In this document: positions 14,593-32,794 of the stretch, one piece after another
Position numbering within the stretch: the stretch's first letter is position 1
Layout: each line of letters begins with the position of its first letter
Assembly: GCF_026013545.1 (NCBI RefSeq)
Contig: NZ_JAPDOG010000008.1
Span: forward strand, 1-64,000
Direction of reading: 5' to 3'
DNA length: 64,000 nucleotides
Source of the DNA: Defluviimonas salinarum
Lineage (GTDB): Bacteria; Pseudomonadota; Alphaproteobacteria; Rhodobacterales; Rhodobacteraceae
Made by a program: the position numbers and the translations under genes
The notes under the pieces: generated by a model
What the model saw: only the letters and a program-made list of their open reading frames with translations
The model's database searches: none
What the model was told of the DNA's origin: nothing

Positions 14593-16035
14593 TCAGCGCG
14601 CGAGGGAGAGCAGACCCTCCACGTCAAGATGCGCCTCCATGTGGTCGGCCAGCGCGTCGAGCGTGGTCTCGATACTGGTGCCGTAGGTGGCGGTCGAGGG
14701 GGCGCCGAGCCGGGCGAGGAAGGCGGCGCGGAAGGCGTCCGTTGTGAACATGCCGTGCAGGTAGCTGCCGGTGACACGGCCATCGGCGGAACAGGCGCCT
14801 TCGGGCGCGCCCTCGACATGAGCGAAGGGACGAGTGCGATCGGGACCATCGGTCCGGCCGATATGGATCTCGTAGCCCTCCATCAAGGTGCCGGTGGCCG
14901 CATGGACGGCGGCGGTACGGGTGAGCCGCTTGTCGGGGGTCATCACCGTTGTGACGTCGAGAAGGCCGAGGCCGGGGGTCTCGCCCGGTTCGCCCTCGAT
15001 CCCGTCGGGATCGGCGATGCATTGTCCAAGCATCTGGTAGCCGCCGCAGATGCCGAGCACATGACCGCCGCGCCGGACATGGGCGGCAAGGTCGATGTCC
15101 CAGCCCTGCTGTCGCAGAAAGGCCAGATCGCCGCGGGTCGACTTGGAGCCGGGGAGTATGACGAGGCTCGCGTCGCCGGGGATGGCGTCACCGGAGCGCA
15201 CCATCGTGAGGCTGACGGCGGGCTCCAGCTTCAGCGGGTCTAGATCGTCGAAATTGGCGATGCGCGACAGCGCGAGGCAGGCGATCTTCAGCGGCCCGCC
15301 CGCCGTGGCGCCGCCGAGGTCGAGCGCATCCTCGGCGGGCAGCTTCGCGGCGCCCAGAAAATAGGGCAGCACGCCGAAGCCGCGCCAGCCGGTGCGCGCC
15401 TCGATCAGCCGGTAGCCGTCGTCGAAGAGCGCGGGGTCGCCACGGAACTTGTTGATGAGGAACCCCGCGACCATGGCGGCGTCCTCGGGGTCGAGCACCG
15501 CCTGGGTGCCGACGATCTGGCCGATCACGCCGCCGCGGTCGATGTCGCCGGCAAGCACCACCGGCACGTCGGCCGCACGCGCGAACCCCATGTTCGCGAT
15601 GTCGCCTCTGCGCAGATTGATCTCTGCCGGGCTGCCCGCACCCTCGACGATGACGAGGTCATGGGCGGCTTTCAGACGCGTGAAGCTCTCGAGAACCGAA
15701 GCCAGAAGTTGCGGTTTCAGGGCGGAATAGTCTCTTGCCCGTACCGTCGTCAGTCTCTTTCCCTGCACAACGACCTGCGCCCCGGTATCGGTTTCGGGCT
15801 TGAGAAGGACCGGATTCATGTCGGTATGCGGCGCGAGCCCCGAGGCCAGCGCCTGAAGTGCCTGCGCCCGCCCGATCTCGCCTCCGTCCACGGTGACGGC
15901 GGCGTTGTTCGACATGTTCTGCGGCTTGAACGGCGCCACCGACAGCCCCCGCCGTTTGGCTGCGCGGCAGAGCCCGGCCACGAGGAGCGACTTGCCGACA
16001 TTGGAGCCGCAGCCCTGGATCATCAGCGCCTTCAC
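14593..16035 (-). CDS. cobQ: Cobyric acid synthase
   Basis: 480 residues, glutamine- and ATP-dependent amidase adding four amides to adenosylcobyrinic acid a,c-diamide. P-loop region [16 protein letters not shown] at the N terminus, [23 protein letters not shown], and a C-terminal class I-like amidotransferase domain with the catalytic cysteine in [14 protein letters not shown] and histidine in [12 protein letters not shown] at 16035 (KALMIQGCG) is taken as start because AAGAAGGCGG precedes it and family members begin there; ATG at 16023 is the alternative. The coding sequence carries two AT-rich, AGA-codon patches near 15721-15763. Confidence 0.95.
15721..15740 (-). repeat. AT-rich intragenic word, cobQ copy
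   Basis: On the coding strand GGGCAAGAGACTATTCCGCC, inside cobQ, using the rare codons GCA and AGA. It shares AGAGACTATTC with the cobF, cobI and cobL copies; a weaker relative lies at 15751-15763. Confidence 0.4.
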
Positions 16036-16044
16036 AGTGTACCC

Positions 16045-16106
16045 GCCTTCTTCATTGTCCAAGTACCCCGGGGGTCCGGGGGCAGCGCCCCCGGCCACCG
16101 CCCCCG
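16045..16106 (-). repeat. GC-rich hairpin repeat, copy 3, upstream of cobQ
   Basis: Read on the minus strand: hairpin CCGGGGGCGCTGCCCCCGG (16076-16094), then ACCCCCGGGGTACTTGGACA and ATGAAGAAGGC. The terminal AAGAAGG lies about 10 bases before the cobQ start, so the repeat appears to supply its Shine-Dalgarno sequence. Confidence 0.6.
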
Positions 16107-16171
16107 GCAAGGTCCCGGCGCAGATCCGAAGGCGCGCACCTGCATGGCTTGCGAAGACGCGGCGGCATCAC

Positions 16172-16516
16172 TCAGCCCCGAAATGGCAGGAACGCCTCGA
16201 CAGCCGCCGTGGCGATGACGATCACGTTGCCGCTGTCGGGATTGATGACATCGAGCCCGCCTTCGACCGTTGTGACTGAAATCCGGCCGCGAGGCAGGCC
16301 AGCGGCGAGCGCGGCGCAATCCACAGCCTCCGGCTTCTGCACTCCCACCGTCACCACGACCCGCATCTCGGCGTGGTCGAGATCGAGCGCGTCGAACATC
16401 GGGATCGACGAATGGCGGATCGCGTCCTCGATCGCGCGCCGGGCGGCCTTCTGGTAGTCCCGCCCGTACTGGTCGTTGCCCATACCCATTTCGATGATGA
16501 AGCGCTGATCGCTCAT
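16172..16516 (-). CDS. Lin0512-family protein, second of a tandem pair
   Basis: 114 residues, recognised as the uncharacterised Lin0512 family from FIIEMGMGNDQYGRDYQKAA, AIRHSSIPMFDALD and the GGLDVINPDSGN stretch. No catalytic motif is evident and no signal peptide or membrane segment. It overlaps its paralogue by four bases and is followed by cobQ, so it is carried in the cobalamin operon. Function unknown; a role in handling a corrinoid intermediate or the adenosylation step is only a context-based guess. Confidence 0.75.
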   Translation of the reverse strand: MSDQRFIIEMGMGNDQYGRDYQKAARRAIEDAIRHSSIPMFDALDLDHAEMRVVVTVGVQKPEAVDCAALAAGLPRGRISVTTVEGGLDVINPDSGNVIVIATAAVEAFLPFRG

Positions 16517-16857
16517 GGGCCAACCTCCAGCGAGACCGAAACCGCCGCATTGGCGATCACCGTCGGGTTGCCACCATCGGCGCGCGGCACGTCAAGGCCG
16601 CCCTTAACAAGCGTCACTTTCGGCTGGCCGTAGGGGAAGACCGCAAGGATAGCGGCGGAATCGACCCTGTCGGGCGCCTGCACGCCGATCTCCACATCGA
16701 TCAGCATGTCGCCCTTCGGTCGCCCGAACAACTCCGCGAGGTTTATCGAATTGTGCCAGAGCGCATCCTTCACCGCGCGGATCGCGGCCTCGGTATAGTC
16801 CTGCCGGCGCAGGCTGGTGCCCATGCCGAACTCGGTCAGGAGACGCCGCACCGCCAT
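16513..16857 (-). CDS. Lin0512-family protein, first of a tandem pair
   Basis: 114 residues, same length and layout as its neighbour: LLTEFGMGTSLRRQDYTEAA, ALWHNSINLAELFG, a matching beta-rich middle and GGLDVPRADGGN. The shared FGMG/EMGMG start, a hydroxyl-rich HNSI/HSSI turn and the GGLDV motif show an old duplication, since most other positions differ. Its ATG shares one base with the cobO stop (TGATG). Partner or subunit relation to the downstream copy is likely from conserved pairing; the biochemical role is unknown. Confidence 0.75.
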   Translation of the reverse strand: MAVRRLLTEFGMGTSLRRQDYTEAAIRAVKDALWHNSINLAELFGRPKGDMLIDVEIGVQAPDRVDSAAILAVFPYGQPKVTLVKGGLDVPRADGGNPTVIANAAVSVSLEVGP

Positions 16858-17480
16858 CAGAACTCGACCCCCTTCTGACCCTTGATCCCCGACCGGAACG
16901 GATGCTTGATCAGCGTCATCTCGGTCACCAGATCGGCGATCTCGATCAGCTCCTCCTTGGCGTTGCGGCCTGTCAGCACGACATGGGTCATCGCCGGCTT
17001 CTCGTCCTTCAGGAAGGCCACGACCTCGGCAATGTCGAGATAGTCGTAGCGAAGCGCGATGTTGATCTCGTCGAGGAGCACCATCCTGATGCGCTCGTCG
17101 CGGATCAGCTCCTTGGCCTTCTCCCAGCCCTTCCGTGCCGCCGCGATGTCGCGCTCCTTGTCCTGCGTTTCCCAGGTGAAGCCCTCGCCCATCGCGTGAA
17201 ACTGGCAGAGATCGCCGAAATGCGCCTCGATCAGTGTGCGCTCGCCGGTTGACCAGGCGCCCTTGATGAACTGCACGACGGCCGAGGGCATCCCATGCGC
17301 GATGCAGCGCAGGATCATGCCGAAGCCGGAGGAGGACTTGCCCTTGCCCGCGCCGGTATGAACGATGATCAGGCCCTTCTCGCCTTCCTTCGTCGCCATG
17401 ATCTTGTCGCGGGCGGCCTTCTTCTTGGCCATCTTCTGGGCGTGGCGCTCGGCGTCACTCGGGGGCGTGGGCGTGGTCAT
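16857..17480 (-). CDS. cobO: Corrinoid adenosyltransferase
   Basis: 207 residues, CobA/CobO/BtuR family enzyme moving the adenosyl group of ATP to Co(I) corrinoids. P-loop VHTGAGKGKSSSGFGM, VQFIKGAWSTGER, and VLLDEINIALRY with the Walker B acid are all present. The N-terminal lysine-rich helix (HAQKMAKKKAARDKIMATKE) is usual. ATG at 17480 has GAGGGA six bases upstream; a longer TTG start at 17513 is less likely. Leads the transcript cobO-Lin0512-Lin0512-cobQ. Confidence 0.95.
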   Translation of the reverse strand: MTTPTPPSDAERHAQKMAKKKAARDKIMATKEGEKGLIIVHTGAGKGKSSSGFGMILRCIAHGMPSAVVQFIKGAWSTGERTLIEAHFGDLCQFHAMGEGFTWETQDKERDIAAARKGWEKAKELIRDERIRMVLLDEINIALRYDYLDIAEVVAFLKDEKPAMTHVVLTGRNAKEELIEIADLVTEMTLIKHPFRSGIKGQKGVEF

Positions 17481-17546
17481 GGCGGTCCCTCTTGTCGTCG
17501 GGTCGGTGTTCAATAGGCGATTGCGGGGCGGATGGCGAGGGGCGGC

Positions 17547-18731
17547 TCATGCGCGCGGCCCGCTGAAGACCGGGCGTTGCGGCGCGCCACGCAAGGTCGG
17601 GGCGAGGGCAATCAGAAAGAGCGTCCAGCCGGCGATCCAGAGGAGCGCCGCGAGCTGGCTCAGTTCCGGAACCGCGCTCTGGGCGATCCGCAACCAGGCC
17701 GAGAGCCAGACGAGGGCGAAGCCTGCGATGTTCGGCCAGCCGGCGACGAGCCGGTCGGGCGCGCGCCGCGCCACCGAACGGGCGGCCACCGCGTAGATCA
17801 GGCAGGACATCGCGCCCGCCGTAAGCGCGTGCAGCGCATCCGGTTCGGCAAGGAGCGGCACACCCAGCCGTGCGAGGCCGGTGAGGCAAAGCCCGACCGG
17901 CAGCCAGAGAAAGCCGAGATGCAGCATCAGGAGCAGCGCGTCATGCCGTACCGCCGCCCGCTGCCAGAGCGCGAGCCGGAGCGCCTCGGCCCCGGCCCCG
18001 GCGATCAGGGCCACGCCAGCAAGCGTTTCGGCCCCGGCAAGCGTGGCGAGAAGTGCCGCGAGGATCGCGGCGCCGCCGATGTGGGCCACTCGCTCGGCTG
18101 CGGGCACCGGCGGGGCATGTTCCGCTGCGACGCGGTTCTCGGTGAAGGCGCGGACCATGCGGCCGCCGATGACCGAGAGGATCAGCGCGAAGACGAGGAT
18201 CGCGGCGCGGGGATCGGCCCCGGCACCGAGCACGGCGAGATCGGCAAGGCCGAGGAGTGCCGCGAAACCCGCCTGCAGACCGCCCTTGGCCGAGCGCCCG
18301 GCGACGGCCTCGCGCCCGAGCAGCAGCGCGAGCCAGGCGAAGAACCCCGCGCTCGTGGCCGCGACGAGCGGCAGTGGCAGCGCAGGCAGCCCGGCGAGCG
18401 CGAGCCGGGCGGCGATCCAGATGAGCGTCAGGATCAGGATCCGCGCGCCGGAGGCGGGCGGGCGGTGGCTCCAGCTCGGCGCGGCGGTGAGAGTGTAGCC
18501 CGCGAAGGCGGCGCCTGCGAAGCCGAAGAGCATCTCGTGCGCGTGCCAGAGCGTGGCCGAGCCCAGCGCATCCGCCGCCGGCCCGCCCGATTCGCCGAAG
18601 GCCCGCCAGCCGATCACGACGACCGCCCAGAGCCCGGCGGCGAGGAACATCGGACGGTGCGCGGTGGCGAGGATGCCGCCCGCGGCACCCGCCGGGTCGT
18701 TCCTGTGCGTCGGGGCTTCGTAACCGTTCAT
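17547..18731 (-). CDS. NnrS-family membrane protein
   Basis: 394 residues, almost entirely hydrophobic with about 12 predicted membrane helices. LATAHRPMFLAAGLWAV, LWHAHEMLFGFAGAAFAGY and SVIGGRMVRAFTENR carry the conserved histidines of the NnrS family, heme- and copper-containing membrane proteins linked to nitric oxide stress. It lies 66 bases upstream of cobO on the same strand and starts in the gap shared with the first cobalamin riboswitch. Why it accompanies B12 genes is unclear. Confidence 0.85.
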   Translation of the reverse strand: MNGYEAPTHRNDPAGAAGGILATAHRPMFLAAGLWAVVVIGWRAFGESGGPAADALGSATLWHAHEMLFGFAGAAFAGYTLTAAPSWSHRPPASGARILILTLIWIAARLALAGLPALPLPLVAATSAGFFAWLALLLGREAVAGRSAKGGLQAGFAALLGLADLAVLGAGADPRAAILVFALILSVIGGRMVRAFTENRVAAEHAPPVPAAERVAHIGGAAILAALLATLAGAETLAGVALIAGAGAEALRLALWQRAAVRHDALLLMLHLGFLWLPVGLCLTGLARLGVPLLAEPDALHALTAGAMSCLIYAVAARSVARRAPDRLVAGWPNIAGFALVWLSAWLRIAQSAVPELSQLAALLWIAGWTLFLIALAPTLRGAPQRPVFSGPRA

Positions 18732-18766: not shown

Positions 18767-18779
18767 TGCCTCAGGAGAG

Positions 18780-18990
18780 GCGCGCTGGTTCCTGCCTAAG
18801 GCAGGCGAAGAGGGAATGCGACAGGCTTTGCGACCACAAGTGGTCCGGCGCCGAAGCGCAGCCGCCCCCGCGACCGTGACCGGAGAGGCCCCCCGAGGCC
18901 CACTGGCGAGATGCCGGGAAGGGGGAGGGGCCGTCGGGGCGAAAGCCCCGGCATCCGCAAGCCGGGAGACCTGCCAGCGAGGACGTTGTG
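18780..18990 (+). ncRNA. Cobalamin riboswitch 1
   Basis: The class-defining pieces occur in order: GGTTCCTGCC, GAAGAGGGAATGCG, AGCCGCCCCCGCGACCGTGA, GGAGAGG, CCACTGG, GCCGGGAAGG, GGCATCCGCAAGCCGGGAGA and the B12 box AAGCCGGGAGACCTGCC at 18959-18975. It controls the DUF1636-cobW-cobN-cobG... operon. The 100 bases after it contain GC-rich pairing (around GCGGACGGGGGGTTCCGC) that could form the expression platform. Exact ends are estimates. Confidence 0.93.
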
Positions 18991-19068
18991 ACGGCGGACG
19001 GGGGGTTCCGCGACCGGCTCGGGGCAGGATCGCCCCCCGCAGGCCGCCCCTTTCCGTAAGGGAGAAGG

Positions 19069-24913: not shown

Positions 24914-25532
24914 CTACCAGACCGACGGCGCCGCGATTTACCGCGAGAGCTTCGCCACCATCCGCGCCGAGGCCGACCTCGCGCGCTTCACCCCCGAGGA
25001 GGAGGTCGTCGTCGTCCGCATGATCCATGCCGCCGGGATGGTGGGGCTTGAGGAACACGTCCGCTTCTCCCCCGGCATGGCGATCGCCGCCCGAGCAGCA
25101 CTTGAGGCCGGCGCGCCGATCCTCTGCGACGCACGCATGGTCAGCGAGGGGATCACCCGGGCGCGCCTGCCCGCCAACAACGCGGTCATCTGCACGCTGC
25201 AGGATCCGCGCGTGCCCGAATTGGCGAAGGAGATGGGCAACACCCGCTCCGCCGCCGCGCTGGAGCTGTGGCGGCCGCATCTGGAAGGGGCCGTCGTCGC
25301 CATCGGCAACGCGCCGACCGCGCTCTTTCACCTCCTGAACATGCTCGAGGACCCGGCCTGCCCGCGCCCCGCGGCGATCATCGGCTGCCCGGTGGGCTTC
25401 GTGGGTGCGGCCGAATCGAAGGACGCGCTGATGGAGGACCTGCCGGTGCCCTCGGTCATCGTGAAGGGCCGCCTCGGCGGCTCGGCGATCACCGTCGCCG
25501 CCGTCAACGCGCTCGCGAGCCGGAAGGAATGA
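24903..25532 (+). CDS. cobH: Precorrin-8X methylmutase
   Basis: 209 residues, catalyses the 1,5 methyl shift giving hydrogenobyrinic acid. Catalytic histidine at about residue 42 in VVRMIHAAGMVGLEEHVRFS; LCDARMVSEGITRARLPANN, AIGNAPTALFHLL and CPVGFVGAAESKDAL are hallmark blocks. Overlaps cobG by 11 bases and touches cobI. Confidence 0.96.
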   Translation: MPHSYQTDGAAIYRESFATIRAEADLARFTPEEEVVVVRMIHAAGMVGLEEHVRFSPGMAIAARAALEAGAPILCDARMVSEGITRARLPANNAVICTLQDPRVPELAKEMGNTRSAAALELWRPHLEGAVVAIGNAPTALFHLLNMLEDPACPRPAAIIGCPVGFVGAAESKDALMEDLPVPSVIVKGRLGGSAITVAAVNALASRKE

Positions 25533-32518: not shown

Positions 32519-32555
32519 TCCGCCTTGACCGGATGGTCCGCTTGCTGGCAGATGG

Positions 32556-32750
32556 AAGGGCATGGTGTCCATCAGGCGCAAAGCGTCCGGACCGAAACGG
32601 GAATGGGGAAGGGTGGACCAAAGGCGGCACCCGAAGCCCCAACCGCCCCCGCGACTGTGAGCGGCGAGCGGCTTTCCAACGGCCACTGGGGTTCGCCCCC
32701 GGGAAGGCGGAAGGCCGCAGCGACCCGCAAGTCAGGAGACCGGCCATGTG
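32556..32750 (+). ncRNA. Cobalamin riboswitch 2
   Basis: Class features in order: GGTGTCCATCAGGCGCAAAG, GGGAATGGGGAAGGGTGGAC, CCGAAGCCCCAACCGCCCCC, GCGACTGTGAGCGGCGAG, CCACTGGGG, GGGAAGGCGGAAGGCC, GACCCGCAAGTCAGGAGACC, with the B12 box AAGTCAGGAGACCGGCC at 32729-32745. It lies upstream of cbtB-cbtA, so B12 represses cobalt uptake. Ends are approximate. Confidence 0.93.
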
Positions 32751-32794
32751 GGAAGGCAACAAAAGCCGTCGGGTGTGACGGCAAGGAGAACGAC

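Follow-up and report, generated by a model that had tools for sequence, protein, structure and literature searches.

Two overlapping genes of the Lin0512 family, set between cobO and cobQ in a 64,000-nucleotide stretch of DNA from Defluviimonas salinarum (hereafter the window, meaning the whole stretch analysed), form a pair that recurs across Proteobacteria in a constant order, whose members descend from a single old duplication and share out unequally the residues conserved in single-copy relatives. With confidence little better than even, it is proposed that the two proteins constitute a hetero-oligomer with a split site, that the wider family serves a role linked to ThDP-dependent metabolism, and that the position of the pair in a cobalamin operon is a lineage-specific insertion. 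No paper on Lin0512, PF09585, TIGR02058 or 3C8L was found in the open-access literature.

The two genes and their place in the locus

Both genes are complete open reading frames (Table 1), and the four bases in which they overlap read CCATGAGC. The stop codon of cobO and the start codon of the first Lin0512 gene also share one base (TGATG), the spacing between the pair and cobQ is about 140 bases, and the pair is embedded in a large cobalamin cluster. Within this cluster cobO, cobQ, cobW and CbiC/CobH were named by searches and the other cob genes by reading of their sequences; the mechanical open reading frame of cobQ extends to 16110. Against PF09585 (Lin0512_fam, cut-off 23.4 bits) the first gene scored 117.6 bits (E 3.7e-34) and the second 112.2 bits (E 1.8e-32), and the TIGR02058 scores of the pair proteins, 60.6 and 59.1 bits, lie slightly over the cut-off of 56.85, so that a chance match is excluded by the family profiles. 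The two partners are 44% identical across 110 residues (BLASTP E 5e-28) and are the sole Lin0512 matches in their own 5.0 Mb genome. The preliminary description of tandem 114-residue paralogues with a four-base overlap, placed between the adenosyltransferase and cobyric acid synthase genes, is thus borne out, as are the motifs that it named, GGLDV and HxSI, the latter being present as WHNSI/RHSSI.

Two further features of the locus were observed. A gene on the same strand, with the look of an NnrS-type membrane protein on reading of its sequence, stops 33 bases short of the mechanical cobO open reading frame and is a possible operon member. Between the pair and cobQ lies a G+C-rich palindrome whose 19-base core has no second exact copy in the window; as a possible hairpin it has no folding advantage over shuffled sequence (z 0.06).

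Table 1. Features of the window that bear on the Lin0512 pair.
Feature	Coordinates	Strand	Remarks
First gene, B-type Lin0512, 114 aa	16513..16857	-	Complete ORF, ATG start
Second gene, A-type Lin0512, 114 aa	16172..16516	-	Complete ORF, ATG start
ATGA stop/start overlap of first and second Lin0512 genes	16513..16516	-	
cobO, upstream in presumed operon	16857..17513	-	PF02572, E 1.1e-65
cobQ, downstream	14593..16032 (start about)	-	NF001989, 626 bits
Cobalamin riboswitch before cobW, opposite strand to pair	18770..18992	+	RF00174, 74 bits
Second cobalamin riboswitch	32546-32762	+	
CbiC/CobH	24936-25520		Search-based name
NnrS-type gene, possible operon member	17547-18731	-	Named by sequence reading
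G+C-rich palindrome between pair and cobQ	16060-16110		

Constancy of the pair and division of its conserved residues

Lin0512 genes were found in 40 of 149 genomes sampled from the family of the window, and all 40 held exactly two copies with no internal stops, a solo copy being found in none of them. The 67 pairs considered here comprise the window, 39 other loci of this family sample, 10 loci of a Pseudomonadota sample (eight more from the same family and two others) and 17 named genomes, the record titles of which span Rhodobacterales, Acetobacteraceae, Hyphomicrobiaceae, Granulosicoccaceae, Thiotrichaceae and Chromatiales. One genome (G530), with matches resembling a near copy of those in G532, was left out of the collected loci. 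Neighbour calling was coarse in GC-rich loci owing to antisense open reading frames, and seven loci displayed by it without Lin0512 were retained later through profile search. The gene order within the pair is the same at all 67 loci, and the reading frames overlap in 55 of them, by four bases in 38, one base in 12 and eight bases in 5. The identity between partners has a median of 43%, and partner distances are correlated (r 0.77, with shared descent uncontrolled). In a tree of the 67 pairs and 26 single-copy proteins, built by a 'quick' method from few columns, one branch (95, starred) sets apart all 67 first genes, and a different one (98, starred) does so for all 67 second genes. The two reciprocal clades and the fixed order therefore trace the pair to one ancient Lin0512 duplication. 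No reading frame among 141 sequences represented a natural fusion of two Lin0512 domains. The heterodimer suggested in the preliminary description thus receives strong, though indirect, support from the fixed order, the reciprocal clades, the lack of solo copies and a complementary loss of residues, and the two proteins are very probably the subunits of an obligate heteromer.

A second conserved setting, in which the pair lies between addB-addA-trxA and hslV, was observed in six of the 67 pairs (L059, L064, L068, L075, L076 and L080), which form one clade of six. A partial extra Lin0512 match covering profile positions 1-45 (G344:C97:837790-837921, locus L106) was also noted less than 1 kb ahead of an intact copy; the genome belongs to the Bradyrhizobium-type family.

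The conserved residues were compared, in the numbering of the second gene of the window, with those of 74 single-copy Lin0512 proteins, which come mainly from one lineage (56 of 74 are Bradyrhizobium-type by motif). D15, G18 and K23 are invariant in this set, H17 (73/74), Y76 (70/74) and N103 (72/74) are nearly so, and most single-copy members carry a GxGxDxHGxDxTKAA loop. This loop is intact in neither protein of the window. The first has a degenerate version (S15, R17, R18, E23) and retains Y76 and N103, whereas the second retains D15, G18, D20 and K23 and shows the changes H17 to Y, T22 to Q, Y76 to R and N103 to T. The loop is a subfamily trait that is not strict even among the singles, and the assignment of both proteins to Lin0512 by profile therefore stands. 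Across the 67 pairs, D15 is found solely in the second protein in 45, in both in 19 and in neither in 3; the corresponding counts are 47, 19 and 1 for G18 and 46, 21 and 0 for K23, and none of these three residues is ever confined to the first protein. Y76 shows the reverse, being present solely in the first protein in 58 pairs, in both in 3, solely in the second in 4 and in neither in 2, as does N103 (first 50, both 1, neither 16). H17 is restricted to the second protein in 27 pairs and to the first in 5, and is missing from both in 35 and shared in none. Position 76 of the second protein varies with the state of the first loop: it is R in 44 of the 48 pairs in which that loop is degenerate, and Y, F or H in 18 of the 19 in which it is intact. 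The remaining pair, L060, combines an intact first loop with R76, and this single row suggests that the Y76R change may have preceded decay of the first loop.

This partition could be explained if each subunit of the single-copy relatives carried both halves of a site, namely the GxGxDxHGxDxTKAA loop and Y76/N103, and if a single old duplication had then given rise to the two subunits of one obligate hetero-oligomer. The second protein would supply D15, G18 and K23 and the first Y76 and N103, leaving one composite site live and the other dead. Tentatively, with odds somewhat short of even, the residue pattern points to one surviving and one abandoned site of this kind, each combining the loop from one subunit with Y76/N103 from its partner. 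Tandem-duplicate hetero-oligomers with one live site are known from CaaD, of the tautomerase superfamily, and from DsrEFH/TusBCD, which likewise consist of small adjoining paralogues with an asymmetric loss of site residues; these systems differ from the Lin0512 pair in fold, and an activity of the pair itself is a proposal. The model of one live site does not predict loss in both subunits, as seen for H17 (35/67), N103 (16/67) and P60 and D97, two positions conserved in the singles and altered in both pair proteins. The positions of the partition were picked after inspection of the alignment, and since the 67 pairs are kin, the partition may reflect two or three events. In ten single-copy proteins from acetoin-type loci (see below), D15, H17, G18 and D20 are present in 10/10, but K23 is found in 5, position 76 is F in 8 and I in 2 and never Y, and N103 is seen in 5 of 9. 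Given this variability of K23, Y76 and N103, only the D-x-H-G-x-D core is general to the family.

Linkage to cobalamin genes

The operon had been taken in the preliminary description to indicate corrinoid handling, and the corresponding explanation is that the heterodimer would bind or channel a corrinoid on its way from the adenosylation step (CobO) to the amidation step (CobQ). The overlap with the cobO stop codon and the position before cobQ fit this proposal. A set of 22 cob sequences of the window served as queries for cob genes within 5 kb of each locus (E 1e-12, identity of 33% or more, coverage of 40% or more). cobO was found in 21 of the 67 pairs, in every case upstream on the same strand, and cobU-cobT adjoin the pair at one further locus (L071), giving 22 pairs with a true cob gene; a 23rd match, at L078, is the siroheme synthase CysG. 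Against the proposal, 45 of the 67 pairs and all 74 single-copy loci showed no cob gene at distances up to 5 kb, these counts being upper bounds since less than 5 kb was available on one side in 12 pair and 18 single loci. The cobO-linked pairs all belong to one clade of 38 rows (87/85, not starred), alongside 17 unlinked rows, and the cobO label requires 10 changes on the pair tree, at least 7 of them by starred branches. We read this as one gain of linkage followed by repeated loss, although the change count itself is blind to the direction of change.

Within the family sample, CobO is encoded by 37 of the 40 pair-bearing genomes versus 75 of 109 without the pair (Fisher p 0.0025, a test that ignores kinship) and CobQ by 38 of 40 versus 82 of 109 (p 0.005); both CobO and CobQ are present in 74 of the 109 genomes without the pair. 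Among the latter is G010, a genome of the same genus as the window and 100% complete, which has CobO, CobQ and CbiC and no Lin0512, whereas G101, a single contig also 100% complete, has the pair and lacks all three. In the Pseudomonadota sample, CbiC was found in 23 of 26 Lin0512 genomes versus 127 of 372 others (Fisher p 4.6e-8), an association that was given little weight because two families, with 13 and 10 genomes, contribute 23 of the 26 positives; for the family of the window alone the comparison is 13/13 versus 10/14 (p 0.098). Of 80 named loci, 50, equivalent to 50 Lin0512 genomes, were searched for CbiC and CobO, which were found in 19 and 26, respectively, and 7 of the 17 named pair-bearing genomes lack both, six of these seven being labelled MAG. 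The window and 6 of 10 other linked loci carry a cobalamin riboswitch on the opposite strand, the other 4 having none, and none was found in 31 unlinked pair loci. No riboswitch was thus seen ahead of the pair in the 42 of 67 pair loci scanned.

Together, distribution, tree, co-occurrence and riboswitch results indicate that B12 synthesis does not require the pair and that the pair also occurs outside it, and the pair is probably not a dedicated cobalamin protein. Frequent occurrence outside cobalamin synthesis, which the preliminary description had named as evidence against its own reading, is what the 45 unlinked pairs, the 7 named genomes and G101 display, leaving corrinoid handling unsupported, and a corrinoid function deduced from the operon was dropped as the leading view. 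The corrinoid-handling factor was retained as an unlikely alternative, since the co-occurrence with CobO exceeds chance, and because this statistical association remains within the family, a role in B12-using metabolism may still apply. A gene for an MttB-like corrinoid methyltransferase follows the pair on the same strand at two loci of different clades (L086:7510-9054 and L088:7589-9136; 270 and 264 bits, cut-off 525), which would also fit a link to corrinoids. The cobO-cobQ position in the window would instead represent a lineage-specific operon insertion, with no dedicated step of cobalamin synthesis.

Fold and acetoin neighbourhoods of the family

The predicted models of the first protein (md356b05cd608, pLDDT 92.3) and of the second (m4fdfa91ea9e0, pLDDT 90.3) match 3c8l with Z scores of 17.3 and 15.8, respectively, each over 112 residues. 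This structure of the Lin0512 family, Npun_R1471, is titled an FtsZ-like protein of unknown function. The pair shares its predicted fold and passes both curated profile cut-offs of the family, and differs in being a fixed pair of which the first member is without the DxHG...K loop and the second without Y76 and N103. After 3c8l, the closest fold matches are C-terminal domains of FtsZ, with Z up to 7.9, and chorismate mutase and RidA-type structures appear in the Foldseek lists. FtsZ C-terminal domains, AroH-type chorismate mutase and RidA share with the pair a small alpha/beta arrangement at Z below 8, a level of similarity that can reflect a common fold arrangement and possibly nothing further, and in a Pfam scan the pair proteins gave no sequence-family match to any of the three. 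The pair has no FtsZ GTPase domain, and the relation to FtsZ is confined to fold. Cyanuric-acid-hydrolase-like domains were absent from the fold lists shown and from a profile search of PDB sequences, which excludes nothing. In small folds of the chorismate-mutase/IspF/RidA-like kind, the fold type of Lin0512 proteins, sites are commonly located between subunits.

A general damage-control or reactive-intermediate enzyme with a RidA-like role, acting in many catabolic settings and hence found among scattered neighbours, is improbable. The appearance of RidA-type and chorismate-mutase structures among the fold matches is in keeping with such a role, as is the variety of neighbours, which include a PLP enzyme, IlvD, an M20 peptidase, an aminotransferase, UbiD, TenA and the addA-trxA-hslV set. 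However, profile comparison (hhalign) with RidA (PF01042) gave E values of 0.038 for first genes, 0.1 for second genes, 0.57 for singles and 0.068 for all proteins, no better than the range of unrelated control families, and RidA-like homology was rejected; furthermore, RidA homologues are present in 9 of 9 related genomes, and the association of Bacillota Lin0512 genes with acetoin clusters, described below, is too regular for a general role.

A local resemblance was found to IspF (2-C-methyl-D-erythritol 2,4-cyclodiphosphate synthase), in which the D and H of a DxH motif and a His from an insertion are metal ligands. The model of the second protein aligns with IspF at Z 6.5 (rmsd 3.5, 98 residues), and the GMGxDVHG motif of single-copy Lin0512 proteins aligns with the N-terminal GxGxDVHx of IspF (hhalign E 0.0016 over 11 columns, with 0 of 75 control families as good). 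The comparison of IspF with the other profiles gave E values of 0.21 for second genes, 0.16 for first genes and 0.091 for all proteins, a longer alignment was obtained solely when forced (mact 0.01 or 0.1), and global mode gave E 0.8. A Pfam scan at E 0.001 reported PF09585 alone and no match to YgbB (PF02542), and Lin0512 differs from IspF in being without the insertion that bears the third metal His. Homology to IspF was therefore not adopted, the support being limited to the 11-column motif match. A possible counterpart of the DxH metal motif after strand 1 would comprise the conserved D15 and H17 of the singles (74/74 and 73/74), both of which occur in 10 of 10 acetoin-type proteins, while in the pairs both subunits lack H17 in 35 of 67 and never carry it together.

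The neighbourhoods of single-copy relatives provide a lead to the function of the family. In a Bacillota sample of 149 genomes, taken from the phylum of G540 (Virgibacillus), Lin0512 was found in 11 genomes as a single copy each, and in 10 of these (L258-L267) an aco-type cluster holds or adjoins it, a raw count uncorrected for the frequency of aco clusters. The ten proteins are 43-97% identical (median 53%), and their genes share a strand with the acoA- and acoB-type E1 genes. In five loci Lin0512 lies directly before acoA with a gap of 26-65 bases, in two (L264 and L265) it lies directly before acoX with acoA 5.7 kb further on, and in three it is 0.7, 2.6 and 5.5 kb from acoA, with a gene on the opposite strand intervening in one of them (L262). 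acoX is near Lin0512 in 9 of the 10 loci, and acoC, an acoR-type sigma-54 activator, dihydrolipoyl dehydrogenase, lipoate genes and an MDR-type dehydrogenase are also found beside it. Gene order and sequence reading form part of the basis for the aco and lipoate names: NCBIfam labels the E1 proteins as pyruvate-dehydrogenase-type, the acoR-type regulator scores under the family cut-offs, and acoX gave NAD-kinase-type domain matches only. The sole exception in the sample is G540, its centre; no aco genes were found at the nine Bacillota loci L119-L127, one of which (L119) belongs to G540 and two (L120 and L126) to short stretches. Three Azospirillum regions and one Listeria region shared no neighbour theme, aco included. 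According to a published account, acoX is a typical component of acetoin clusters, with unknown function, and the Pelobacter carbinolicus cluster contains a similar set that includes acoX and methylmalonyl-CoA-epimerase-family, lipoate and thiamin genes (PMC3543383). Two side observations concern these records. The Listeria monocytogenes entry NZ_CP030101.1, of 2.9 Mb, is filed in a plasmid collection and, judging from its size, is probably a chromosome, and a corrinoid methyltransferase-type protein (L266:5600-6235; TIGR02370, 182 bits, under the cut-off of 215) is encoded upstream of the Lin0512-aco genes of its locus.

A second setting connected with ThDP enzymes was seen in Bradyrhizobium-type genomes, where an acetolactate-synthase-type gene lies upstream on the same strand in 36 of the 74 single-copy loci, within 500 bases in 26 and within 3 kb in 10. 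All 36 are at least 88% identical to the query and represent one lineage; that of L100 matches NF006187 at 826 bits against a cut-off of 509. A ThDP enzyme 27-31% identical to the same query occurs at six pair loci, at five of them on the opposite strand, and a TenA gene directly follows Lin0512 in L137. L139, with acoA-, acoX- and acoR-type genes within about 7 kb, is the only pair locus near aco genes, and no aco cluster surrounds the pair in the window. The likeness to acetoin dehydrogenase clusters (acoA, acoB, acoX, acoC, acoL, acoR) thus concerns the single-copy genes of the Bacillota sample, which lie in or beside them, and the acetoin context is a lead for the family and not for the pair of the window.

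A family function of the acetoin or 2-oxo-acid type is put forward as a tentative assignment, somewhat less than an even prospect, in which Lin0512 proteins would most likely perform an accessory small-molecule step near the ThDP-enzyme metabolism of acetoin, acetolactate or 2-oxo acids. The same contexts could be accounted for by a non-catalytic assembly or regulatory protein of ThDP-dependent E1 or acetolactate-synthase-type enzymes, as the position directly before acoA in 5 of 10 Bacillota loci and downstream of the acetolactate-synthase-type gene in Bradyrhizobium would allow. This is quite unlikely: every single examined has D15, G18 and D20, and one alone lacks H17, a pattern with the look of a ligand or metal site, and two Bacillota loci place Lin0512 directly before acoX instead. 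A more specific form of the enzymatic reading is a long shot. In it, Lin0512 would be a missing metal-dependent enzyme of alpha-hydroxyketone metabolism, such as an isomerase or racemase of acetoin or acetolactate, and would have an IspF-like DxH site placed between subunits. A homo-oligomer of an ancestral proteobacterium would have become an obligate hetero-oligomer with one live and one dead composite site, and this hetero-oligomer would have been co-opted into the cobalamin operon of Rhodobacterales.

For PF09585, a family without an assigned function, these observations provide two handles. The first is the regular place of its genes in acetoin-dehydrogenase-type clusters near acoX among the Bacillota sampled, and the second is the way in which a conserved site has been naturally divided between two subunits, which predicts which residues meet. 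They also advise caution, in that a B12 function should not be inferred from the cob operon of one lineage.
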